Shown here: in pieces, positions 1 through 8,930 of the stretch
How positions within the stretch are numbered: position 1 is the first letter of the stretch
Layout: every line of letters starts with the position of its first letter
Assembly: GCA_017462125.1 (NCBI GenBank)
Contig: JAFTRQ010000171.1
Location: 1 to 8,930, forward strand
DNA length: 8,930 nt
Origin: Clostridia bacterium
Lineage (GTDB): Bacteria > Bacillota_A > Clostridia > Oscillospirales > CAG-272
Reading direction: 5' to 3'
The notes under the pieces: model-generated
What the model was told of the DNA's origin: nothing
What the model saw: only the letters and a program-made list of their open reading frames with translations
Databases searched by the model: none
Program-made: the position numbers and the translations under genes

Positions 1-225
1 ATCAAGGCAAGCCGCGCCCACCTCGCAAGCGGAGATCATTCTTCTTTGAACGAGGCGCTCCACAAGAGAACTGTCGGCTATCTCGGTCTGCCCGTCACAG
101 AGCGAGAGCAATTCAAATTCTTCTTTTGTCAACCTCTGCGCGTCGCGCCGACCTTTTACGTAATAGGCGTAAGGCACGCGCCACCAAGAACGTAGGGCGA
201 TGTTTTTGTTCAGTATAAACGTCAT
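1..225 (-). CDS. Putative radical SAM peptide maturase, N-terminus only
   Basis: Bases 225 to 1 read as an open frame of 75 codons that leaves the window without a stop. The protein begins MTFILNKNIALRSWW, continues RVPYAYYVKG, and then has a helix-rich stretch (TKEEFELLSLCDGQTEI). I recognise this opening as the N-terminal, PqqD/winged-helix-like segment typical of radical SAM enzymes encoded beside Nif11-type precursors in Clostridia. In such enzymes this segment precedes the CxxxCxxC cluster and a SPASM-type C-terminus, neither of which is visible here. The start is the first ATG, only 9 bases after the stop of the preceding precursor and with a weak GTGGG ribosome site, so translation is probably coupled. 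Expected role: leader-guided modification of one or more of the locus's cores in the cytoplasm. The reading frame is firm; the enzyme class is inferred from recalled family resemblance. Confidence 0.65.
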   Translation of the reverse strand, partial: MTFILNKNIALRSWWRVPYAYYVKGRRDAQRLTKEEFELLSLCDGQTEIADSSLVERLVQRRMISACEVGAACLD

Positions 226-234
226 ACCCACTTA

Positions 235-495
235 TTATCCGCAATGACTTTTTTTGCGTTTTTCATCCTTGTCTGCCACAAGGTTGTAATTCATTATAGG
301 CTCACTCACAATCGCACCGCCCGACACCATATCGAGAAGTTCATCGTCAAGATCAGGCAAATTGATCTGCTCAAAATATTTCCTTGCTTCGTCTTCGGTT
401 ATATCGATTCCCTCAGCCTTTGCAAGCTCAAACAGTTCTTTTGCAGACTTTGCGCCTTTTGCCTTTTGAATCATTTCGGCACTAAAGTCAGTCAT
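235..495 (-). CDS. Nif11-type RiPP precursor with single-Cys core
   Basis: This 86-residue peptide has a Nif11-like leader (residues 1-60: FSAEMIQKAKGAKSAKELF, then AKAEGIDITEDEARKYFEQI) ending in the export/cleavage motif DMVSGG at 55-60. The predicted core, 61-86, has 26 residues and is basic near its end (KRKK), with Tyr70 and a lone Cys85 next to last. Unlike the other precursors it has no CxxC pair, and its leader lacks the LNPKSGELDDDEL consensus, reading INLPDLDDELL instead. A good ribosome site (AAGGAG at 504-509, 8 bases from ATG) supports the start. It sits 20 bases after another precursor and 9 bases before the radical SAM-like gene, so it is the best candidate substrate for that enzyme. 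Expected fate: cytoplasmic modification, Gly-Gly cleavage by the C39 exporter, then secretion. The bioactivity of the product is unknown. Confidence 0.88.
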   Translation of the reverse strand: MTDFSAEMIQKAKGAKSAKELFELAKAEGIDITEDEARKYFEQINLPDLDDELLDMVSGGAIVSEPIMNYNLVADKDEKRKKSHCG

Positions 496-515
496 ATCTA
501 AAACTCCTTGTTATG

Positions 516-914
516 TTATTTACCCATCTTCGGGTTGTTACAGTACATTTTACCGCCCTCAAAGGACACGGAAACACAATTATAGCATCTCCATTCTTCA
601 CCGCAAATACGGCACTTTTCTGTGCCCATATCCACATTGTTACCGCATCCGTTTTTGCATTCAAAAGAGGTGTGACAACGACCGCCCATATCGACAATTC
701 TTCTGCCGTCACTCGCATAGCCGCATCCACCGCCTGCAACTGCATCGAGCTCATCATCGTCAAGCTCGCCACTCTTGGGGTTAAGCTGTGCGAAGTAGGT
801 AGCCGCCTCGTCTGCGGTCATTTCAACGCCGTTGTCTTTTGCAAGAGCAATAAGCTCCTCTGCGGACTTTACCGCTTTTGCCTTTTCGATCATTTCTGTG
901 TTAAAGTTTTTCAT
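516..914 (-). CDS. Nif11-type precursor with nine-Cys, paired-CxxC core
   Basis: This 132-residue peptide has a classic Nif11-like leader, residues 1-62, closing with SGELDDDELDAVAGG. The core is long (about 70 residues) and rich in Cys: 64, 80, 86, 90, 101, 104, 110, 113 and 125. The pairs CRIC (101-104) and CYNC (110-113) form C-x2-C-x5-C-x2-C, a layout able to hold zinc or an iron-sulfur cluster. If cleavage follows Gly63, Cys64 becomes the first residue. Its leader matches that of the precursor at 4037-3636 at 46 of 62 positions, while the two cores differ. It starts 27 bases after the sigma factor gene with a modest AGGA ribosome site and is followed 20 bases later by another precursor, so all are probably on one transcript. 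It could also be a secreted small metal-binding protein rather than a heavily modified peptide. Confidence 0.9.
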   Translation of the reverse strand: MKNFNTEMIEKAKAVKSAEELIALAKDNGVEMTADEAATYFAQLNPKSGELDDDELDAVAGGGCGYASDGRRIVDMGGRCHTSFECKNGCGNNVDMGTEKCRICGEEWRCYNCVSVSFEGGKMYCNNPKMGK

Positions 915-941
915 TGTTTTTTTCCTAACTTTGTATTTGAA

Positions 942-1442
942 TTACGAGTTTTTCATTGCAAGCCTCAGCTTGCCAATCGCTTGGTGTTTAATAAATTTCG
1001 CGTTTGTATATGTAATACCCATTTTTATAGCAATATCCCGAAGGGGAATTTCGTGATAATAATAAAGCACAATAACGTCCTGCTCACGCTCGGTTAGGGA
1101 CGTAAGAGCTATAGCAAGGTTCTCCTTCAGAATCTCGTTTTCAATTTCAGCCACCACGCCGTCGTCTGTGTCAGAGCAGAGAGCGTTCTCTTCGAGGGAG
1201 AGCGCTCTTTTACTCTGCTCACGGTAATAATTGCATACCGTATTGTGGGTGATGGTATAGATCCAAGTGGAAAGGGTGGCTTTTTCCTCGCCGTAGGAAT
1301 CGAGAGAGGAAAGCACCTTGAGAAAGATCTCCGAGGTGACGTCCTCGGCATCTGCCGTGTTTGCCACCTTTCCTCTGACATAACGGAAAACCTTTTCTCT
1401 GTATTCAAGATAGATTTTTTCCATTACGTCGGTCTTATTCAT
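942..1442 (-). CDS. ECF-type RNA polymerase sigma factor
   Basis: This 166-residue sigma-70 family protein has only regions 2 and 4. Region 2 spans roughly residues 10-80 (YLEYREKVFRYVRGKV, then DAEDVTSEIFLKVLSSLDSY and TLSTWIYTITHNTVCNYYR, the -10 recognition and melting part). Region 4 spans about 115-165 (LTEREQDVIVLYYYHEIPL, then a helix-turn-helix ending IKHQAIGKLRLA). This is the size and order of extracytoplasmic-function sigma factors. A longer in-frame start at 1517 is possible, but the ATG at 1442 has a perfect AAGGAGG six bases upstream and overlaps the stop of the preceding small gene (ATGAATAA), so I chose it. No membrane anti-sigma gene is visible. It leads a run of two precursors and a maturase, so it is probably the local activator. 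Its likely target element occurs at 4083-4113 and 3574-3604. Confidence 0.92.
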   Translation of the reverse strand: MNKTDVMEKIYLEYREKVFRYVRGKVANTADAEDVTSEIFLKVLSSLDSYGEEKATLSTWIYTITHNTVCNYYREQSKRALSLEENALCSDTDDGVVAEIENEILKENLAIALTSLTEREQDVIVLYYYHEIPLRDIAIKMGITYTNAKFIKHQAIGKLRLAMKNS

Positions 1443-1629
1443 CCTCGTCCTCCTTTTTGGAGAGAAGATAATTTTGCTCTCCGGCAGCACTGACCCAGCC
1501 GAGCGCTTCATCATCAAGCTCGGCTGAATCCATGCCGTATTTCTTTTCTACTCGCGCGATAATAACCGCGAGTCTTTTGTTCGGCGCACTCCGCTGCGAA
1601 GCAAACGCCTGTCTGAGTGTGTTTTCCAT
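1435..1629 (-). CDS. Small acidic protein coupled to the sigma factor
   Basis: I do not recognise a characterised function. The 64-residue protein starts MENTLRQAFASQRSAPNKRL, has a basic, probably helical first half, and ends in an acidic tail (SKKEDEDE). Residues 36-50 (AELDDEALGWVSAAG) resemble the leader ends of the locus's precursors (GELDDDALDAVAGG), but the double Gly is replaced by AAG and there is no Cys. Its stop overlaps the sigma factor start by 8 bases (ATGAATAA), so the two are translationally coupled and probably work together. An ATG at 1629 with GGAG five bases upstream is preferred; an in-frame GTG at 1647 would add six residues. Possible roles are a soluble regulator of the sigma factor, a degenerate precursor, or a leader mimic; the context favours a regulatory role. 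This part is inference. Confidence 0.75.
   Translation of the reverse strand: MENTLRQAFASQRSAPNKRLAVIIARVEKKYGMDSAELDDEALGWVSAAGEQNYLLSKKEDEDE
1449..1455 (-). promoter_or_regulatory. Ribosome binding site of the sigma factor gene
   Basis: Reading the minus strand, AAGGAGG lies 6 bases before the ATG at 1442, inside the last codons of the upstream small gene. It matches the anti-Shine-Dalgarno sequence fully and fixes the sigma factor start at 1442 rather than at the longer in-frame option at 1517. Confidence 0.85.
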
Positions 1630-1693
1630 AATGTCTCCGTTCTTCACCTTTGGGAGCCCTCGATTTTGCCGAAAAAGCAGATTTTTTAGGGAA

Positions 1694-1724
1694 GAAGAAG
1701 CACCCTTTTAAAAAATGCTTCTTC
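1694..1724 (-). other. Intercistronic hairpin after the tandem precursors
   Basis: A perfect 9-base inverted repeat (GAAGAAGCA / TGCTTCTTC) flanks a 13-base loop, beginning 20 bases after the stop of the precursor at 2157-1744. There is no U-run after the stem on the minus strand (TTCCCTAAAAAA follows), so a classic intrinsic terminator is unlikely. It could act as a processing or stability hairpin, or a weak attenuator, separating the abundant precursor message from the sigma factor message. No convincing promoter is visible in the 114-base gap that contains it. Confidence 0.5.
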
Positions 1725-1743
1725 GGGCTTTAAGTAATAGACT

Positions 1744-2157
1744 TTATCGGTTGGTAATCTCGGGCTTTCTGATCAGAGTGCAAATCTCCATGCCCTGTCT
1801 GGTCTGGCAATGGATGCATGTACCGCAACGTTCGCCCTTAAGAGTTCCGGGGTGGGTGGGATACGGATCTTGCGCATAGGGCTTTCCGGGAGCAAAGCAC
1901 TTTACATTCATAGTAACAACAGCATAGCCGTCCTTGTAGGTACAACCGCCTGCAACAGCATCAAGTGCGTCGTCATCAAGCTCTCCGCTTTCTGCGGGAA
2001 GGGTTTCAATTGTGCCGAGAAGCTCAACAGCCTCCTTCAGATCTTCTTCGCTGTACTCAACGCCGAGCTCGTTGGCCTTTGCGATCAATTCCTCTTGGGT
2101 CTTGCACTCCTGGAATGCAGCGATCTGTTCGTTTGTAAACTTTTTCAAAACTGACAT
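1744..2157 (-). CDS. Nif11-like precursor, C-x2-C-x-H-x9-C core class, copy 2
   Basis: This 137-residue precursor has a leader of 71 residues (NEQIAAFQECKTQEELIAKA, then SGELDDDALDAVAGG at 57-71), which is Nif11-like but diverged from the other leaders. The core starts directly at Cys72 and contains Cys87, 111, 114, 117 and 126. A segment RCGTCIH (110-116) followed by GMEIC gives C111-x2-C114-x-H116-x9-C126, a plausible four-ligand metal site; Cys117 is extra in this copy. The middle is rich in Pro and aromatic residues (APGKPYA, PYPTHP). It lies 33 bases after its paralogue at 2604-2191 and shares the block GYAVVTMNVKC with it. An AAAGGA ribosome site precedes the ATG. Expected path: leader removal after Gly71 by the C39 exporter and secretion. 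The bioactivity and any modification are unknown. Confidence 0.9.
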   Translation of the reverse strand: MSVLKKFTNEQIAAFQECKTQEELIAKANELGVEYSEEDLKEAVELLGTIETLPAESGELDDDALDAVAGGCTYKDGYAVVTMNVKCFAPGKPYAQDPYPTHPGTLKGERCGTCIHCQTRQGMEICTLIRKPEITNR

Positions 2158-2190
2158 GATGTAATTTCCTTTCTTGATCTGAAGTGTTTG

Positions 2191-2604
2191 TTATTTTCTG
2201 TTGGCTATTGCGGGATCGATAGTCAGAGGGCAAACCTCCATACCATCCATAGTGACCATGTGGATGCAGGTACCGCAGCGCTTGCCATCCAGCGTATGGG
2301 GATGTGCGGGGAAAGGGCTCTTTGCATAGGGCTGTCCGGGAGCTAAGCACTTTACATTCATAGTAACAACGGCATAGCCCTTCTTGTTGTAGGTGGTACC
2401 GCCTGCAACAGCATCAAGTGCGTCGTCGTCAAGCTCTCCACTTGCTTCTGCTTCTGCGGGATGGAGAACTTTGAAGCCGGCTTCAATATCCTCTTCGGTA
2501 TACTTGATACCGAGTTCGTTAGCCTTAGCTATCATCTCCTCTCTGGTTTTGCAGTCCTTGAACGCTGCAATCTGTTCATTTGTAAGTTCGTGCAATACTG
2601 ACAT
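2191..2604 (-). CDS. Nif11-like precursor, C-x2-C-x-H-x9-C core class, copy 1
   Basis: This 137-residue paralogue of the next gene has a leader of 69 residues, from MSVLHELTNEQIAAF to SGELDDDALDAVAGG at 55-69. Its core, 70-137, begins with TTY instead of Cys and has only four cysteines: 86, 110, 113 and 125. These keep the pattern C110-x2-C113-x-H115-x9-C125, so the four-ligand site survives in both copies while other cysteines do not. The conserved blocks are GYAVVTMNVKC, a Pro/aromatic stretch (APGQPYAKSPFPAHP) and RCGTCIH. AAGGAGG at 2614-2620, nine bases upstream of ATG, is the strongest ribosome site of the precursor set and suggests high expression. It is the first gene after the acetyltransferase, 82 bases downstream, and probably shares its promoter at 3574-3604. 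Confidence 0.9.
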   Translation of the reverse strand: MSVLHELTNEQIAAFKDCKTREEMIAKANELGIKYTEEDIEAGFKVLHPAEAEASGELDDDALDAVAGGTTYNKKGYAVVTMNVKCLAPGQPYAKSPFPAHPHTLDGKRCGTCIHMVTMDGMEVCPLTIDPAIANRK

Positions 2605-2660
2605 AAAAATATGCCTCCTTTTTTATTAACTCCCATAAGGGTGAGTTTTATGTTTATTTG

Positions 2661-2674
2661 CGGGGTTCCCCCCG
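2661..2674 (-). other. GC-rich GNRA-type hairpin before the tandem precursors
   Basis: On the minus strand CGGGG-GGAA-CCCCG forms a five-pair stem capped by a GGAA (GNRA) tetraloop, in the 82-base gap between the acetyltransferase and the first tandem precursor. It is followed by CAAATAAAC rather than a U-run, so it is not a standard terminator. An mRNA end-protecting or processing hairpin for the highly translated precursor message would fit. A second small stem (CCGCA / TGCGG) overlaps the acetyltransferase stop. Confidence 0.5.
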
Positions 2675-2686
2675 TAGTTGCCGCAT

Positions 2687-3556
2687 TTAGTGCGGGTGAA
2701 GAAATGTTTTTTTGCTGTAAACCTTGAAAGGCTGAACCTTATCGACATACTGCGTAATAAAATCATTATCTGATAGTGCCCTCATCCGATCGTTGTCATG
2801 GTATACGACAAAGGATATCTTCCAAAAGCTGTCTGCGAGCAGATCCGTAAACGTTTGAAAAAGCGGCAAGAGGAATGCACCCGAAACCGAATGTTTTGCC
2901 CGCGACAGAAGGTGAAAGACCGCCATATTCCCTACCGTTTCAATCAAGGAAAATGCAATGGGCTGATCGTTCTTAAACAGACAATAGGAATATCTGGGAT
3001 CATAATTTGAGAAAAGCAATGGATTTGTATTGTACTCAAATTCCGTGCCAACCAGCTCACCGATCCGCTTTACAATGTTTTCGCATTCTTCAAAACGCTT
3101 CAAGACATATCCTCTTGACAAAAGACGATCAATGATTCGTTTGTAGCGACTTTCATACAAGGCTTGGTGTACGTCTGCTTTCGCCTTCACATCAGCGATA
3201 TAGCTGTACGCATAATAATCGTATTCTAAAGCAAATTTTATGACGAGCGCATTAAGCGCTTCTTTAAACGGGTGATGATCCTTGATGCGAATTGTAACGT
3301 TGGGGGAGAGCTCTATGAGCTTAGCGAAAAGTTCTGTTGCGATTCCTCGATTTCTGAAAATCGGTTTCACAAATATGTAGGATACCTCTTGAAACATCAT
3401 TGCCTTTTTTGCTGCGAGAACCCCCATAGGAATACCATTCTCGGTTTCTGCCAAAAGAACCAATCCGTTTGAAAAGCAAATGCCTGCAATATAATCCGCC
3501 GTTGCCGTGAACGAGGGATATTCATTTTTTTCGATTGTTCGTATCTTTATTCCCAC
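2687..3556 (-). CDS. GNAT-family N-acetyltransferase
   Basis: This 289-residue cytoplasmic protein has an N-terminal GNAT domain (about 1-140). It has a first strand IKIRTIEKNEY, strand VSYIFVKP at 58-65, and the acetyl-CoA-binding loop R68-N-R-G-I-A73 followed by helix TELFAKLIE, matching the RxxGxG/A motif of the family. The rest (about 150-289) has alternating strands and helices (FAL-type helix, YSYCLFKNDQPIAFSLIE, ISFVVYHDND) and reads like a second, divergent GNAT fold, making the protein a likely two-domain acetyltransferase. It starts with GTG; the only nearby ATG is closed by a TAA after three codons, and no other start leaves the first strand intact. A GAGG site lies 8 bases upstream. 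A bipartite promoter-like element sits directly before it. It could modify precursor amines or confer self-protection; the substrate is not evident. Confidence 0.82.
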   Translation of the reverse strand: MGIKIRTIEKNEYPSFTATADYIAGICFSNGLVLLAETENGIPMGVLAAKKAMMFQEVSYIFVKPIFRNRGIATELFAKLIELSPNVTIRIKDHHPFKEALNALVIKFALEYDYYAYSYIADVKAKADVHQALYESRYKRIIDRLLSRGYVLKRFEECENIVKRIGELVGTEFEYNTNPLLFSNYDPRYSYCLFKNDQPIAFSLIETVGNMAVFHLLSRAKHSVSGAFLLPLFQTFTDLLADSFWKISFVVYHDNDRMRALSDNDFITQYVDKVQPFKVYSKKTFLHPH

Positions 3557-3573
3557 AAGTATTACCTCGCCAT

Positions 3574-3604
3574 TTTATACACAGAACCTCTGAAAAGGTT
3601 AGAA
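3574..3604 (-). promoter_or_regulatory. Putative ECF-sigma promoter of the acetyltransferase and tandem precursors
   Basis: Minus strand: TTCTAACCTTTT, a 10-base spacer, then GTGTATAAA. The same two blocks with the same spacing occur at 4083-4113. AACCTTTT resembles the -35 'AAC' element of many Bacillota ECF sigma promoters, with the GTGTATAAA block at the -10 position. The predicted start of transcription falls only about 10 bases before the GTG start codon, an unusually short untranslated leader. An AACCT/AGGTT dyad overlaps the -35 half. Confidence 0.72.
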
Positions 3605-3635
3605 TGCTTTTGAAAACTTTTTTCGATAAAGCGGA

Positions 3636-4037
3636 TCAATGCAGAATGCTGTTGTTTTCGGAATTGAGCGTCATAACCTCTTTTCCGCAATAATTACATT
3701 TCCAATAATTGATTCCGTTGTTATGGTAATTGACGGTGGTCAGTGTCCAGCAGTTGAGTTGACCACACTTCGGACAAGCCAATCCCGAAACTTCGTTATA
3801 AAGCGTAATCACATCTTTTACATCGCCTCCGGAATCCTTAGAGCCGCCACATCCACCGACAACGGTTTCAAGCTCGTCATTATCAAGCTCACCGCTCTTG
3901 GGATTCAGCTGTGCATAGTAGATTTTTGCCTCGTCCGCAGTCATTTCGATGTTGTATTCTTTTGCAAGAGCAAGAAGTTCCTCTGCGCTCTTTGCGGCTT
4001 TCGCTTTTTCAATCATTTCGGGAGTTAAGTTTTTCAT
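3636..4037 (-). CDS. Nif11-type precursor with zinc-ribbon-like core
   Basis: This 133-residue precursor has leader residues 1-62 (EMIEKAKAAKSAEELLALAK, then MTADEAKIYYAQLN, then SGELDNDELETVVGG). The core begins at Cys63 (CGGS), then a Gly/Ser/Asp-rich linker, and then C88-P-K-C91-G with C114-N-Y-C117-G-K. This C-x2-C-x22-C-x2-C arrangement with Gly after each second Cys is the signature of a zinc ribbon with two knuckles. Cys96 is extra. The stretch between the knuckles (WTLTTVNYHNNGINYWK) would form the beta hairpins. A good AAGGAG site lies 7 bases from ATG, and a putative ECF promoter lies at 4083-4113, giving it its own regulated start. It lies between the second exporter gene and the acetyltransferase. 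If the core folds as a zinc ribbon, this would be a secreted mini-protein. Confidence 0.92.
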   Translation of the reverse strand: MKNLTPEMIEKAKAAKSAEELLALAKEYNIEMTADEAKIYYAQLNPKSGELDNDELETVVGGCGGSKDSGGDVKDVITLYNEVSGLACPKCGQLNCWTLTTVNYHNNGINYWKCNYCGKEVMTLNSENNSILH

Positions 4038-4082
4038 AGTAAATCTCCTTTATGAAAATTTTTATTTTTATGGTTTCAATTA

Positions 4083-4113
4083 TTTATACACGGGAAACCG
4101 AAAAAGGTTAGAA
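4083..4113 (-). promoter_or_regulatory. Putative ECF-sigma promoter of the precursor at 4037-3636
   Basis: Minus strand: TTCTAACCTTTT, a 10-base spacer (TCGGTTTCCC), then GTGTATAAA. It is identical to the element at 3574-3604 in all 21 positions outside the spacer. It sits in the gap between the second exporter gene and the precursor, leaving an untranslated leader of about 40 bases that contains the AAGGAG site. The locus's own ECF sigma factor (942-1442) is the obvious reader, by inference. Confidence 0.78.
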
Positions 4114-4140
4114 GAAAATGCAACAATATTTTTTCTGCAT

Positions 4141-6324
4141 TTACGCATCAATCCTTTGTCTTTCCACAAGCTCAGCAAACTTGCCGTTCAGAGCGATCAG
4201 CTCGTCATAGGTTCCGTCCTCGACGATCTTTCCTTTTTCAAGATAGATAATGCGGTCGCATTCCTTGATTGTGGAAAGTCGGTGAGCAATGACGATACGG
4301 GTGCATTTGAGCTTTTCAAGCGACTCGGAAACGATTTTCTGCGTGATGTTGTCAAGGGCGCTCGTTGCCTCGTCAAACATCAGTATTCTCGGCTTGGGTG
4401 CTATGGCGCGCGCAATCATAAGCCTTTGACGCTGACCGCCCGAAATACCGCCCGAGCCCTCTGCAATAATCGTGTGCATTCCCATGGGCATTCTGCGAAT
4501 ATCCTCGGCAATGCCCGACATCTCCGCTGCCGCCCACGCATCGTCCATAGAAAGCTGCGGTGCGGAAATCACGATATTGGAATAAATATCACCCCCAAAG
4601 AGCTTGCCGTTCTGCATTACCACGCCGATCTTACGGCGCAGAGATTTGAGGTCGATTCCGGAAAGGTCTTTTCCGTCATAGTAAACCGCACCCTTTTGGG
4701 GCTTTTCAAAGCCGAGCATAATGCGCATCAGCGTGGACTTTCCGCAGCCCGTAGAGCCGACGATGGCAACGTACTGACCGGGACGGATCTTGAGGGAAAG
4801 GTTGTCCACAACGTTTGGCATATTTTCGTTGTAGCGGAAGGACACGTTGTTGAGTTCGATGCCGCCCGAGAGCCGCTCAAGGACGAGCTTACCTTCGGAA
4901 ACCTCGGGAATAGCGTCCATAATCGGCTTTGCCATCTCAATGGTGGGCTTAAACTGTGCTATCGTAGTAGCGATGCCTGCAAGCGCCATAAACGCGCCGT
5001 TAACCATACCGTATGCCGTATTGAATGCGTAGTAATCTGCCACGCTGACACCGCTCTGTACCGCCATAAAGTACATCAGTATCATTCCACCCATGGAAAT
5101 GATTGCGCTGAACGCTCCGCTTGCACGGAGGAACATGGGCGGATTGTAGGAAACCATAAGTTGTTCGGAATAGAGCTTTGACCAACGGGCGAACATTCGC
5201 TTTTCTGCGCCCGAGAGCTTGATCTTCTGTACACCCGTAATCATGGAGTAGCTCATACCAGACTCCTCTGCAGATAATTCCATAGCTTTCTTGGTGTATC
5301 TCGTCTGCACAAATGTTGTAATAAGCGAAAAGATTATCGTCGCAAAAATTATGCCAAGAGCCGGCACGACAAGTGCAGGTGCGTATACAAAGATCTGCGA
5401 GATATACATCAAAGAGAAGATTGAGGTAAGTCCTGTACTCAGCACGGTTGAAACGAGCATATTACAAAGGGACTGTATGTACTGCGCACGGGATGAAAGA
5501 TCACCCGAAGCGTATTTTTTGAAGAAGTCGGCAGGTAAGGACAGCACACGCATCATGGTTGCCGCCTGCACAGACAGGGACATTTTGGTGGTGATACGCG
5601 TCATCAAGAGAGATTTTACCGAGCCGATCAGCATCGTACTGATGCTAACGCTTATCATAAACACCGTAATGCCGATGAGAAGCTGATAGTTCTTGCTCTC
5701 CACGACAGTTCCCATCAACAGATTGTTGAGCTTAGGACCAAGAAGTCCTAAGAGAGTGGTAGCCAGAGTTGCCAGAGCGATCAGCACGAAATCCGCCATG
5801 GAAAGCGTTTCGATTATATACCTCATTAAGGAGCGAAGCGTGAGCTTGCCGAGTGGGAACGGCTTATAAAAGCAGATGCCTTCGTCCTCAAAGAGCGATT
5901 CGTTTTTCTTATTCAGCTTCACCCACTTGCCCGTGGGAGCGTCGAAATAAACGTAGCCGGAAAGTCCTTTGGGAATAAATGCGACCACGCTGCCGTCATC
6001 CTTGCGTGTGCCGATCACAGCACCGATGGCATCCTTGTACCAACCCTTCTCCAAGTTCACGTTACGGCGCATAATACCGTTTGGACGAAGGAGGTATTCA
6101 AGACGGTCGTTCAGTCCTTTGATGGAATCGGGAACCTCGCGGGGTTTTACGTGATAGTATTTTAGGATCTTTTCGATTGCCCCCTGTGCCTTTGCCTCGT
6201 CGTTTGTAAATGCTGCGCTCATCTTTGAGCCAAGCACCGCATCGGCAATGCCTACAAAGGCTTCGGAGAACAGATCCTCGTCGTTTTTCTTTCTTTGTTT
6301 TATTTGTTCATCAAACCAACCCAT
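4141..6324 (-). CDS. NHLM-type bacteriocin exporter, permease/ATPase without peptidase
   Basis: This 727-residue inner-membrane ABC half-transporter resembles the second of the two exporters typical of NHLP/Nif11 systems (NHLM ABC2 type). Residues 1-160 are a soluble N-terminal domain without the C39 Cys/His motifs, ending in an immunoglobulin-like stretch (GYVYFDAPTGKWVKL). Membrane helices occupy about 175-455. The nucleotide-binding domain has Walker A GSTGCGKST (523-531), Q-loop Q571, signature ISGGQRQR (627-634), Walker B with D651-E652 and H-loop H681, all intact, so it should hydrolyse ATP. ATG with GGAG eight bases upstream supports the start. It probably works together with the peptidase-bearing exporter in moving leaderless cores out. 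A sigma-A-like promoter may lie just upstream at 6377-6405. Confidence 0.93.
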   Translation of the reverse strand: MGWFDEQIKQRKKNDEDLFSEAFVGIADAVLGSKMSAAFTNDEAKAQGAIEKILKYYHVKPREVPDSIKGLNDRLEYLLRPNGIMRRNVNLEKGWYKDAIGAVIGTRKDDGSVVAFIPKGLSGYVYFDAPTGKWVKLNKKNESLFEDEGICFYKPFPLGKLTLRSLMRYIIETLSMADFVLIALATLATTLLGLLGPKLNNLLMGTVVESKNYQLLIGITVFMISVSISTMLIGSVKSLLMTRITTKMSLSVQAATMMRVLSLPADFFKKYASGDLSSRAQYIQSLCNMLVSTVLSTGLTSIFSLMYISQIFVYAPALVVPALGIIFATIIFSLITTFVQTRYTKKAMELSAEESGMSYSMITGVQKIKLSGAEKRMFARWSKLYSEQLMVSYNPPMFLRASGAFSAIISMGGMILMYFMAVQSGVSVADYYAFNTAYGMVNGAFMALAGIATTIAQFKPTIEMAKPIMDAIPEVSEGKLVLERLSGGIELNNVSFRYNENMPNVVDNLSLKIRPGQYVAIVGSTGCGKSTLMRIMLGFEKPQKGAVYYDGKDLSGIDLKSLRRKIGVVMQNGKLFGGDIYSNIVISAPQLSMDDAWAAAEMSGIAEDIRRMPMGMHTIIAEGSGGISGGQRQRLMIARAIAPKPRILMFDEATSALDNITQKIVSESLEKLKCTRIVIAHRLSTIKECDRIIYLEKGKIVEDGTYDELIALNGKFAELVERQRIDA

Positions 6325-6376
6325 AAATTTATCTCCGAAATTTTAATACAGAATGCTAAATCAAAATAATTCTTGA

Positions 6377-6405
6377 ATTGTAATTTGACATTTACATACG
6401 TTCAA
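6377..6405 (-). promoter_or_regulatory. Possible sigma-A promoter of the second exporter gene
   Basis: Minus strand TTGAAC, a 17-base spacer, then TACAAT, in the 86-base gap before the exporter gene. The -10 hexamer matches the consensus at 5 of 6 positions and the -35 at 4 of 6, and the spacing is ideal. The gap is AT-rich, so chance resemblance is possible. It lacks the ECF element found at the other two sites, which would make exporter expression constitutive and the downstream precursor conditional. Confidence 0.42.
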
Positions 6406-6410
6406 TAAAA

Positions 6411-6755
6411 TTACGTATTTCCATCAAATTCATAATAGTTTCCGCAATCGGAGCAACCGCGACCATATCCGAGCGTTTCCCAATAAACTATTTTAGGCGG
6501 ATTTTGAGATCCGCACATACGACAAACGAAGTTAGGGGTCTCTTCTTTCGAGTCGCTGCCACTGCATCCGCCACCGACAACGTTTTCAAGATCGTCATCA
6601 AGGATTTCACCCTGCTGAGGGTTCAGCTGTGCGAAGCATGAAGACGCTTCATCGGAGGTTAGCTCCACGCCGCCTGCCTTTACGATTTCCATCAATTCTT
6701 CAGCTGTTTTTGCAGCTTTTGCCTTTTTTATCAGTTCACTGTTAAATGCTTTCAT
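6411..6755 (-). CDS. Nif11-type precursor with compact zinc-ribbon-like core
   Basis: This 114-residue precursor has leader residues 1-62 (NSELIKKAKAAKTAEELMEI, then TSDEASSCFAQLN, ending LENVVGG) with the usual Nif11-like helices. The core follows with Gly63-Cys64, a Ser/Asp/Glu-rich linker, and C78-R-M-C81-G plus C101-S-D-C104-G, that is C-x2-C-x19-C-x2-C. Both second cysteines are followed by Gly, as in zinc knuckles, and the segment between them (KIVYWETLGYGRG) is beta-prone. There is no cysteine outside this set except Cys64. An AAAGGAG site six bases upstream of ATG confirms the start. It lies 51 bases after the C39 exporter gene without a clear promoter, so it is probably on the exporter transcript. 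Placing a precursor between the two exporter genes suggests tight co-expression. Confidence 0.92.
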   Translation of the reverse strand: MKAFNSELIKKAKAAKTAEELMEIVKAGGVELTSDEASSCFAQLNPQQGEILDDDLENVVGGGCSGSDSKEETPNFVCRMCGSQNPPKIVYWETLGYGRGCSDCGNYYEFDGNT

Positions 6756-6806
6756 AAAAAACTCCTTTCTGATTTTGTTACATTTTTAAATAAAAGATAC
6801 AGTATA

Positions 6807-8930
6807 TCAATCGCTCGTAACAAGCTTGGTATAAAAACCGTTCAGCGCGTAAAGTTCCTCGTGTGTTCCGCGCTCGACCACGTTGCCGTGATCCATTACG
6901 ATGATCTCGTCGCAGTCACGTATGGTGGAAAGACGGTGAGCAACAACGATGCAGGTAATTCCTCTGTCCTTGATGGACTTTACGACCTCATATTCAGTCT
7001 TGGCATCAAGTGCACTTGTTGCCTCGTCAAGAATGATGATGGTGGGATCTTGTGCAAGTACGCGCGCAATCTCGATTCTCTGACGCTGACCGCCCGAGAA
7101 ATCCTTGCCGCCCTCGGTAAGCTTGTAGTTATAGCCGCCGTCACGCTGCATAATGTCCTCGTGGAGCTGTGCGTCCCTCGCCGCCATAATCATTTCAAAG
7201 TCCTCGATGGAGCTATCCCACATTTTGATGTTGTTGGCAATCGTGTCCTCGAAAAGAATAATATCTTGGTCAACGACCGCAAGCGATCCTGTAAACACGC
7301 TTCGGTCTATCTTTGTCATTGGCTTGCCGTCAAAGAGAATTTCTCCACTCCACGGCTGATAAAGTCCCGAAATGAGCTTGGAAAGAGTGGACTTTCCGCA
7401 TCCCGAAGTACCGACAAAGGCAACGCGGCTGCCGGGGCGCAAGGTGAGGTTGAAATCACGAATCAGCGGTTCTCCAAGACGGGAGTAACCAAAGGTCACG
7501 TTTCGCATTTCAACGTTACCCGAGAGCTTGTCGAACTCCGTATCCTCACCTTCGTCAGATGCCTGCTCACAAAGGATGTCGGTGGGATATTTCATAACGT
7601 CCTCAATTCGCTCCATTTCGGCACGCATTTCTTGCAAGGTCTGACCTGCGGAGATAAGCTGCCCGGCAGGTGCCATAAACGATCCGAGGAAGCCTTGGAA
7701 CGCCATCACCATACCAACGGTGAAGCTGCCCTCCATCGTCAGATACACACCGATGATCAGCACGGCGGTGTTTGTCAGCGTAGATACGAGGGACGGGATC
7801 ATACCGAGATACTGATTCAGCTTGGCGACCTTGACCGCCTGTGTGTTCACGCTTGCCTGATAGCCTGCCCATTTCTCAAAGAAGCCGTTTTCCGCACCGC
7901 TTGCCTTGATGGTTTCGATCATTTCGATGCCTGCCACGGTCGCGCCTGCGAGTTTACCCGAGTCACGCATAGAAACACGGGTGATGTTCACGCGCTTTTT
8001 CGAGATGATACGGGACATAAACATATTGATGAGTATGGATGCGATTCCAACGAGTGTCAGAAGGAGGCTGTAACGGATCATAACCACAAGGTAGAACACC
8101 ATCATCCCAGTCTCGATCACGAGGGGGGCGAAGGTATCTACAAGCGTTTCTGCTACCGAAGCGTTAGAGCCCTTGCGCTGTTGAATGTCGCCTGCCATTC
8201 TCTGCGAAAAGAATTCCATCGGCATGCGAAGCACCTTCCACATAAACGTAGTGCTTCCTACCGCGTCGATCTTTGCGCTGATACGTGCTTCAAATATCGC
8301 CTCAATGAAGGAGATTATGATTTGTATAGCCGAAAGTGCGGTCAACGCCCAAATAAACGGCATAAACCATTCTGGGTTCTGTCCTGTGAGCAATCGGTCG
8401 ATGAAAATTCGTGAAAAAGCGGGGTTGATGATACCGATTAGCGAGGTGATTACCGTAGTTATGATAGTAAACGCCACGGCAACACCTGCGCCCTTCATCT
8501 TTTCCTTAGCAAAAGCAAGCATGCTCTTGGGCTTACCGCCGGGTTCAAAGGAATCGCCGGGCTCAAACATCAGACAAATGCCCGTAAAGGAATTGTCGAA
8601 GGTTTCCATCGGTACGCTATACGTTCCTTTTGCAGGATCGTTCAGCACCGCCTTGTTTCCTTTGAAACCGTCAAGCACCACAAAGTGATTGAAGTTCCAA
8701 TGGATGATACAGGGGAATTTTCCGCATCTTTTCAGCTCGTCCGGCTCATAGCGATATCCCTTAGCGGTAAGACCGTAGCTTCGTGCCGCTTTGAGTACGT
8801 TTTTGGCGTTAGAGCCGTCACGGGAAACGCCGCAATCCGCGCGTACCTGCTCAAGCGGTATCCATTTTCCGTAATACGCCAAGATCATCGTAAGCGATGC
8901 CGCACCACATTCAAGTGCCTCCATCTGCAT
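6807..8930 (-). CDS. NHLM-type bacteriocin exporter with C39 leader peptidase (N-terminus cut)
   Basis: The visible 707 residues hold a C39 papain-like peptidase at about 1-125, membrane helices at about 150-415, and an ATPase domain. Peptidase motif QMEALECGAA gives catalytic C8, with H82 (NFNHFVVL) and D98 (LNDPAKG) completing the triad. ATPase motifs: Walker A GTSGCGKST (507-515), Q555, signature FSGGQRQR (611-618), Walker B with D635-E636, and H665. This is the peptidase/permease/ATPase class that removes Nif11/NHLP leaders after Gly-Gly while exporting the core across the inner membrane. The visible ATG is internal to a conserved block (VMQMEALECG in relatives), and the frame reaches the window edge, so the true start is probably a few residues upstream. 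It is the only visible leader peptidase for the six precursors. It shares domain architecture with the second exporter at 6324-4141, but only this one carries the peptidase. Confidence 0.95.
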   Translation of the reverse strand: MQMEALECGAASLTMILAYYGKWIPLEQVRADCGVSRDGSNAKNVLKAARSYGLTAKGYRYEPDELKRCGKFPCIIHWNFNHFVVLDGFKGNKAVLNDPAKGTYSVPMETFDNSFTGICLMFEPGDSFEPGGKPKSMLAFAKEKMKGAGVAVAFTIITTVITSLIGIINPAFSRIFIDRLLTGQNPEWFMPFIWALTALSAIQIIISFIEAIFEARISAKIDAVGSTTFMWKVLRMPMEFFSQRMAGDIQQRKGSNASVAETLVDTFAPLVIETGMMVFYLVVMIRYSLLLTLVGIASILINMFMSRIISKKRVNITRVSMRDSGKLAGATVAGIEMIETIKASGAENGFFEKWAGYQASVNTQAVKVAKLNQYLGMIPSLVSTLTNTAVLIIGVYLTMEGSFTVGMVMAFQGFLGSFMAPAGQLISAGQTLQEMRAEMERIEDVMKYPTDILCEQASDEGEDTEFDKLSGNVEMRNVTFGYSRLGEPLIRDFNLTLRPGSRVAFVGTSGCGKSTLSKLISGLYQPWSGEILFDGKPMTKIDRSVFTGSLAVVDQDIILFEDTIANNIKMWDSSIEDFEMIMAARDAQLHEDIMQRDGGYNYKLTEGGKDFSGGQRQRIEIARVLAQDPTIIILDEATSALDAKTEYEVVKSIKDRGITCIVVAHRLSTIRDCDEIIVMDHGNVVERGTHEELYALNGFYTKLVTSD

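Follow-up and report, generated by a model that had tools for sequence, protein, structure and literature searches.

The locus and its exporters

The subject of this study is a group of Nif11-type precursor genes with NHLM exporters in an 8,930-nt stretch of DNA (the window) from a Clostridia bacterium (assembly GCA_017462125.1, contig JAFTRQ010000171.1, positions 1 to 8,930). All genes described in the window are on the minus strand. They form an NHLM export cluster with two transporter genes, ABC1 and ABC2, and six Nif11-type precursors, designated P1, P2, P4, P5, P3, and P6 in their order along the cluster; P1 sits between ABC1 and ABC2, and P2 directly follows ABC2. The preliminary description of this DNA had noted three precursors, P1, P2, and P3; all three are real, and the window holds three others (2604-2191, 2157-1744, and 495-235). 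The exporter genes, P1, and P2 are as follows.

6807..8930 (to the window end), minus strand: ABC1, NHLM family export ABC transporter with an N-terminal C39 peptidase (TIGR03796, 947.6 bits; cut-off 853.3)
6570..6755, minus strand: P1 Nif11-type leader, ending in VVGG (TIGR03798, 1.5e-4, 21.9 bits; below the cut-off of 32.3)
6411..6569, minus strand: P1 core, with GC, an acidic linker and a ribbon-like CRMC-x19-CSDC domain (conserved Cys; Zn_ribbon_RPB9 below cut-off)
4141..6324, minus strand: ABC2, second NHLM export permease/ATPase (TIGR03797, 731 bits; cut-off 709.4)
3852..4037, minus strand: P2 Nif11-type leader, ending in VVGG (TIGR03798, 5.6e-5, 23.3 bits; below the cut-off of 32.3)
3636..3851, minus strand: P2 core, with a CGGSKD linker and a zinc-ribbon-like CPKC-x22-CNYC domain (conserved Cys; Zn_ribbon_IS1595 below cut-off)

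Nif11-derived peptides (N11P, TIGR03798) and NHLM exporters (TIGR03796/TIGR03797) are known (Haft 2010, PMC2887384), and the window is like those systems in leader type, Gly-Gly site, paralogous precursors, and exporter pair. The closest relatives of ABC2 were found in locus L001 (94%; Clostridia metagenome-assembled genome (MAG), roe deer caecum) and locus L066 (95% over part; Oscillospiraceae MAG). The survey covered the window and, of at least 577 related loci, the 80 most similar in ABC2.

Zinc-ribbon-like cores of P1 and P2

P1 (6755-6411, minus strand) encodes 114 aa with CRMC-x19-CSDC and P2 (4037-3636) 133 aa with CPKC-x22-CNYC; these spacings, and that of P3, are exactly as given previously. 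The leader is 62 residues long with a Gly-Gly end in each of P1, P2, and P3, so that the Nif11-type leader and Gly-Gly site ascribed to all three hold, with the qualification that the TIGR03798 cut-off was passed by P3, P1 and P2 falling below it.

The preliminary description had let its reading depend on conservation of the CxxC pairs, and all core cysteines were retained among the relatives: five of five in P1 and six of six in P2, in 8/8 rows each (counting the window; the P2 set excludes P0004, whose start is fused), the rows being close relatives at 80-96% in the core. The Gly-Gly site was present in every aligned row of both. The fraction of composition shuffles reaching the observed CxxC count was 0.019 for P1, 0.029 for P2, and 0.20 for P3, mildly unlikely when taken singly.

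In profile searches, the P2 core matched Zn_ribbon_IS1595 (E 2.1e-4) and the P1 core, scanned within 20 hand-picked cores, matched Zn_ribbon_RPB9 (E 0.007). The structure model of P2, of low confidence, placed strands at 97-102, 110-114, and 120-123 around the knuckles, in the order knuckle-strand-strand-knuckle-strand; in the zinc ribbons of NrdR and of RNA polymerase subunits and factors, a beta hairpin joins two CxxC knuckles, an arrangement that P2 may share. Those ribbons are intracellular domains, unlike the domain described here, which follows a secretion leader. Two points weigh against a zinc-ribbon assignment: neither core reached its curated Pfam cut-off (best 21.6 bits versus 25.4 for P2 and 16.7 versus 25.2 for P1), and the mean predicted local distance difference test (pLDDT) value of the P2 model was 56. 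Because the profile matches were below the curated cut-offs, the claim is confined to likeness and not Pfam membership; judged from sequence, P1 and P2 resemble a zinc ribbon and probably work like one. The earlier proposal of folded metal-binding mini-proteins is thus retained for these two on the basis of conserved CPKCG and CRMCG knuckles and weak but specific profile matches, the P2 strand order being of low confidence.

Searches of PDB sequences with the P1 and P2 cores gave weak matches only (bL33, TFE), and full-length P2 matched only the Nif11 domain protein 9zn4 (E 0.013), via the leader. No relatives of P2 were detected on the viral contigs searched. Another set of ribbon-like cores, the A7 ribbon group, matched PRDM9 (2.5e-4 and 6e-4 over 11 positions), and the next matches, L37Ae and rubredoxin, were no better than 0.1. 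A single homologous ribbon family was considered and found to lack support, as the profiles of P1, P2, and the A7 group have just one knuckle in common.

Paired-CxxC cores at related loci

With the leader profile, 209 Nif11-type open reading frames (ORFs), called mechanically and including the six of the window, were found in the survey. At least two non-overlapping CxxC motifs were present in 71/209 cores before re-cutting, a number far above chance, since 1000 composition shuffles averaged 9 and never exceeded 18; after mis-cut cores had been re-cut, the number was 75/209 (9 of the 75 have leaders shorter than 45 residues). Since the loci were selected via the exporter of the window, this share of 36% is valid for this locus group only. 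Leader-exported ribbons had been thought unusual; the window is not an isolated case, paired-CxxC cores being common at related loci. A Gly follows the second Cys in 81/179 CxxC motifs. The two-CxxC cores matched 57 Pfam families, and 16 among the 25 listed are zinc ribbons or fingers; when all residues other than Cys were shuffled, one Pfam family was matched (counts are per family, not numbers of matching cores). Alignment A8 comprised 6/8 of the rows P0001-P0008 and alignment A9 6/7 of the rows P0009-P0015.

At eight loci (L039, L048, L049, L053, L056, L070, L072, and L076), one family of Nif11 precursors with a ribbon-like pattern (VCxxC...IDVSGGGYYCxxC) is represented. At 7/8 of them (not L056), the precursor has in its vicinity a gene that runs in the opposite direction and belongs to a single group; the sole scanned member of that group (L039) is an OmpR-type response regulator, and no radical SAM gene is in view at these loci. 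Four other loci with similar exporters and no radical SAM gene in view (L023, L025, L042, and L051) carry Cys-free Nif11 cores like short amphipathic peptides, e.g. GIVDTIKHWVGSLFGR.

A second Cys-rich class

Three of the remaining precursors are as follows.

2191..2604, minus strand: P4, Nif11-type precursor, core C..CxxC..C without Cys at +1/+2 (TIGR03798, 25.6 bits; below the cut-off of 32.3)
1744..2157, minus strand: P5, Nif11-type precursor, paralogue of P4, with Cys at +1 (TIGR03798, 25.4 bits; below the cut-off of 32.3)
729..914, minus strand: P3 Nif11 leader, ending in AVAGG (TIGR03798, 34.0 bits; cut-off 32.3)
516..728, minus strand: P3 core, second Cys-rich class, GC....DGR.IV....C...CxxC-like...CYNC...MYCNNP (33-row and 12-row alignments)

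P3 (914-516, 132 aa) contains CRIC-x5-CYNC, which had been taken as its CxxC pair. In 33 aligned cores of the class, CRIC was found to be a variable element and not the class pair, with P0028 lacking its second Cys; the conserved cysteines are a flanking Cys, a CxxCG-like pair (CKNGC in P3, at a position that is CxxC in most rows), a CxxC (CYNC), and a final Cys. The 12-row alignment of close relatives consisted of 11 of the 23 P3-type hits and the window. A core model of this class (pLDDT 78.7; predicted template modelling score 0.55) was matched to no fold by VIA-align or by Foldseek, whose 11 rows reached E 4.5 at best, although the class may still have a known fold, and the likeness of the class to the P2 profile spans one knuckle. 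P3, for which the CxxC pair had been mis-chosen, is probably not a ribbon of the P1 and P2 kind. By eye, P4 and P5 show the P3-like pattern DGxxVVT..C..CxxC..C. P3, together with P4 and P5 as judged by eye, is a second, distinct Cys-rich class (class B). One relative of P3, P0019, has a P4-type leader on a P3-type core, which may reflect exchange of leader and core modules or a chimeric contig.

Radical SAM enzyme and the N-terminal cysteine

1..231, minus strand: first 77 residues of a protein of radical SAM/SPASM type, truncated by the window end (97% to L066:4525-5482)

The 97% match of ORF 231-1 covers 77 residues at the start of L066:4525-5482, which runs on into the radical SAM CxxxCxxC motif, and a relative, L026:12771-14165, matched Radical_SAM (7.7e-22) and SPASM (7.5e-6). 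The nearest solved structure to the L006 enzyme is SkfB (2.4e-11). Three of these radical SAM proteins were scanned, and no NCBIfam cut-off was passed among the 25 families listed for each: PapB maturase NF047865 gave 67.4 bits with the L047 enzyme (cut-off 340), and nif11-class radical SAM maturase 3 (TIGR04103) gave 75.6 bits with the L006 enzyme (cut-off 725).

A precursor with Cys at +1/+2 after the Gly-Gly site was present at 16/17 loci with the radical SAM type of the window (16 loci and the window, chosen by eye from the enzyme N-termini) versus 6/36 loci with no radical SAM gene in view (p 7e-8, the loci not being independent). The exception is L066, the locus nearest to the window by this enzyme. 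In two of the six Cys-bearing loci, L021 and L022, the contig ends fewer than 300 bases past the last precursor, and a downstream radical SAM gene could be out of sight. Loci with other radical SAM types, which stood outside the test, had the Cys in 3/8 cases. Among CxxC-pair cores, the +1/+2 Cys was found in 38/43 at loci with this radical SAM type and in 7/27 at loci with no radical SAM gene in view.

A tree of the enzymes was built without the window and rows shorter than 300 aa (L005 and L008) and with 11 of the later hits; L063, L030, and L032 were labelled as having a +1/+2-Cys core, and L087 is the same as L122. The label, assigned by the rule and carried by 22/34 rows, required 5 changes versus 10.1 in shuffles, with 0/500 shuffles as low. 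The 17-locus set was not one clade, L033 and L094 standing apart together and L087 apart, grouped with enzymes lacking the +1/+2 Cys. Beyond the first 80 loci, seven with an enzyme at least 50% identical to the set (L110, L111, L119-L122, and L124) all had the Cys (7/7), although only L110 and L111 were fresh, the other five having been examined before the rule was set; a two-CxxC core was present in 4/7. Nine other radical SAM loci showed a precursor in four and Cys at +2 in one (L118), and the precursors of L090-L093 lack the +1/+2 Cys. Because L110 and L122 have a similar enzyme and an N-terminal Cys without a ribbon, the enzyme is tied to the Cys and not to the ribbon; at the sequence level, this radical SAM type goes with an N-terminal Cys, and the ribbon is common but not required. 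Two very short, ribbon-free cores with Cys at +2 were seen at loci with a radical SAM gene, L020:6815-7072 (GCNLDNLPHGF) and L122:8595-8807 (FCDSEEDNTKKKDDGKRIKEK).

Counted from the +1/+2 Cys, C-x3-D/E occurred as D in 24/29 class B rows, which are homologous, and as D/E in 10/30 others, the latter number being inflated by a crude class B rule that left at least the class-B-like L020 (CYNND) and P5 (CTYKD) among the 30. At the other nine offsets, D/E was found in 42/269 (one-sided p 0.02, the offset having been picked after inspection). This spacing recalls the substrates of PapB as a hint only. In PapB-type ranthipeptides (PMC9413430), a radical SAM enzyme acts with a Cys-X3-Asp/Glu motif of like spacing; they have six such motifs and the cores here one, N-terminal. 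Another comparison is with the SkfB/SkfA sactipeptides; unlike these, the cores here are hydrophilic with CPxCG, and CxxC-pair cores also occur where no radical SAM gene is in view. The idea of a radical SAM enzyme as the sole candidate maturase of Nif11 precursors is already known (PMC3023750).

Other genes of the window

2687..3556, minus strand: GNAT-type acetyltransferase (PF00583, 22.9 bits; cut-off 20.7)
1435..1647, minus strand: small protein, family unannotated, with SAAGE and a tail at the end, overlapping the sigma gene
942..1436, minus strand: ECF-type sigma-70 factor (TIGR02937, 98.7 bits; cut-off 42.9)
235..495, minus strand: P6, Nif11-type precursor without CxxC, core AIVSEPIMNYNLVADKDEKRKKSHCG (TIGR03798, 17.9 bits; below the cut-off of 32.3)

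The acetyltransferase gene (3556-2687) lies inside the run of precursors, and L066 has a gene of the same GNAT group; its product may modify precursors or serve in self-protection. The small protein (1647-1435) was found, by reading, upstream of or overlapping the ECF sigma gene in 26/30 sigma genes of the cluster group, and 22 of these 26 copies were aligned. Five copies were scanned and gave no Pfam or NCBIfam match above cut-off. Its motif, like LSDDELE-V(N/S)AAGE, resembles the end of the precursor leaders (LSDDELDNVAGG) but lacks their Gly-Gly site. The protein could imitate a leader that is not cleaved, or it could act as an anti-sigma factor that links the exporter with the sigma factor.

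Interpretation

P1 and P2 are best explained, in our judgement with moderate confidence, as precursors from which small zinc-ribbon proteins are made for export. Their Nif11 leaders would deliver them to the NHLM exporter, and the C39 domain of ABC1, judging from its family, would cleave after Gly-Gly. The predicted mature product, of 52 or 71 residues, would have Cys as its first or second residue and continue through a flexible polar linker into a four-Cys domain that, according to its sequence and the low-confidence model, would bind one zinc. From its co-occurrence with the +1/+2 Cys, the radical SAM enzyme most likely works on the N-terminal part near that residue, e.g. by forming a Cys to Asp/Glu thioether, and would leave the ribbon cysteines unconsumed. 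If metal sits in the CxxC pairs and the enzyme works close to the N-terminal Cys, both zinc and thioether chemistry may be present. We regard as tentative, and rather doubtful, the fuller version of a hybrid product in which a zinc ribbon, its CxxC cysteines left free for metal, is joined to a radical SAM thioether ring (C-x3-D/E) at the N-terminal Cys.

Several other explanations were weighed. The cores could be sactipeptide- or ranthipeptide-like, with the CxxC cysteines as radical SAM thioether donors and the ribbon look a coincidence of spacing; thioether crosslinks were also the alternative named in the preliminary description. The radical SAM gene at the cluster end, a CxxC-pair precursor at 16/17 loci with this enzyme type, the relationship to SkfB, and a weak NCBIfam likeness to StsB and PapB maturases, far below cut-offs, all speak for it. 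It keeps some weight, given the enzyme, but is unlikely: 27 CxxC-pair cores occur at loci with no radical SAM gene in view (some of these contigs end nearby), L110 and L122 combine a similar enzyme with a ribbon-free N-terminal Cys, and the ribbon match does not come from spacing alone because Cys-fixed shuffles lose it. Disulfides are a further possible fate of the cysteines, giving small disulfide-stabilised bacteriocins after export, as might be expected of many Cys-rich paralogues by an exporter and of class B cores, in which several Cys are conserved and no fold was matched. The frequent Gly after the second Cys and the CPxCG knuckles, typical of metal sites, point the other way, as do the many gut MAGs among the loci, whose hosts are probably anaerobes in which disulfides are less expected; we hold this explanation to be quite improbable.

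An intracellular role is the least credible of these explanations and is given very little weight. The Nif11 zinc-ribbon proteins would then remain in the cell as regulators of the exporter or the ECF sigma factor, with Gly-Gly as a relic. Gene groups whose single scanned representatives were SpoIIE, HATPase, and STAS occur at 36, 25, and 20 loci, respectively, an ECF sigma gene occurs at 30 loci, and the leader look-alike adjoins the sigma gene, all of which would suit regulators; yet Gly-Gly is kept in all aligned P1 and P2 rows, and P1 lies between the exporter genes and P2 right after the second.

As for the function of exported zinc-ribbon proteins, a single-zinc ribbon that sequesters metal seems a poor explanation for cores so varied. 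Since each cluster has several diverged paralogues, a function in competition or signalling among bacteria is weakly suggested. No target can be read from the fold likeness to ribbons associated with polymerase.

N11P cores named in the Haft study (PMC2887384) pair with thiazole/oxazole-modified microcin or lanthionine enzymes, whereas many cores here look like folded metal domains. The lah cluster of a Lachnospiraceae bacterium, with nine precursors bearing Nif11-type leaders, diverse cores, and one C39 domain (LahT), is similar in its leaders, core diversity, and C39 cleavage, and zinc-ribbon cores are unmentioned in the accessible part of that report (PMC6363468). No description of zinc-ribbon cores behind Nif11 leaders was found in the open-licence literature searched, in so far as its text was available, which limits this absence. 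Nif11 precursors and NHLM exporters are thus known, and zinc-ribbon cores, as recognised by sequence, appear to be new.

If the hybrid product exists, a radical SAM enzyme would modify a protein bearing a folded domain, and the ribbon would be cargo that can be swapped while the modified head in front of it stays the same. The cluster would offer a simple test system, with one radical SAM enzyme on a fixed N-terminal Cys and differing domains behind it. For genome mining, Cys pairs beside a radical SAM gene would not necessarily be thioether donors. Leader-directed peptide export would extend beyond linear modified peptides and include tiny metalloproteins.
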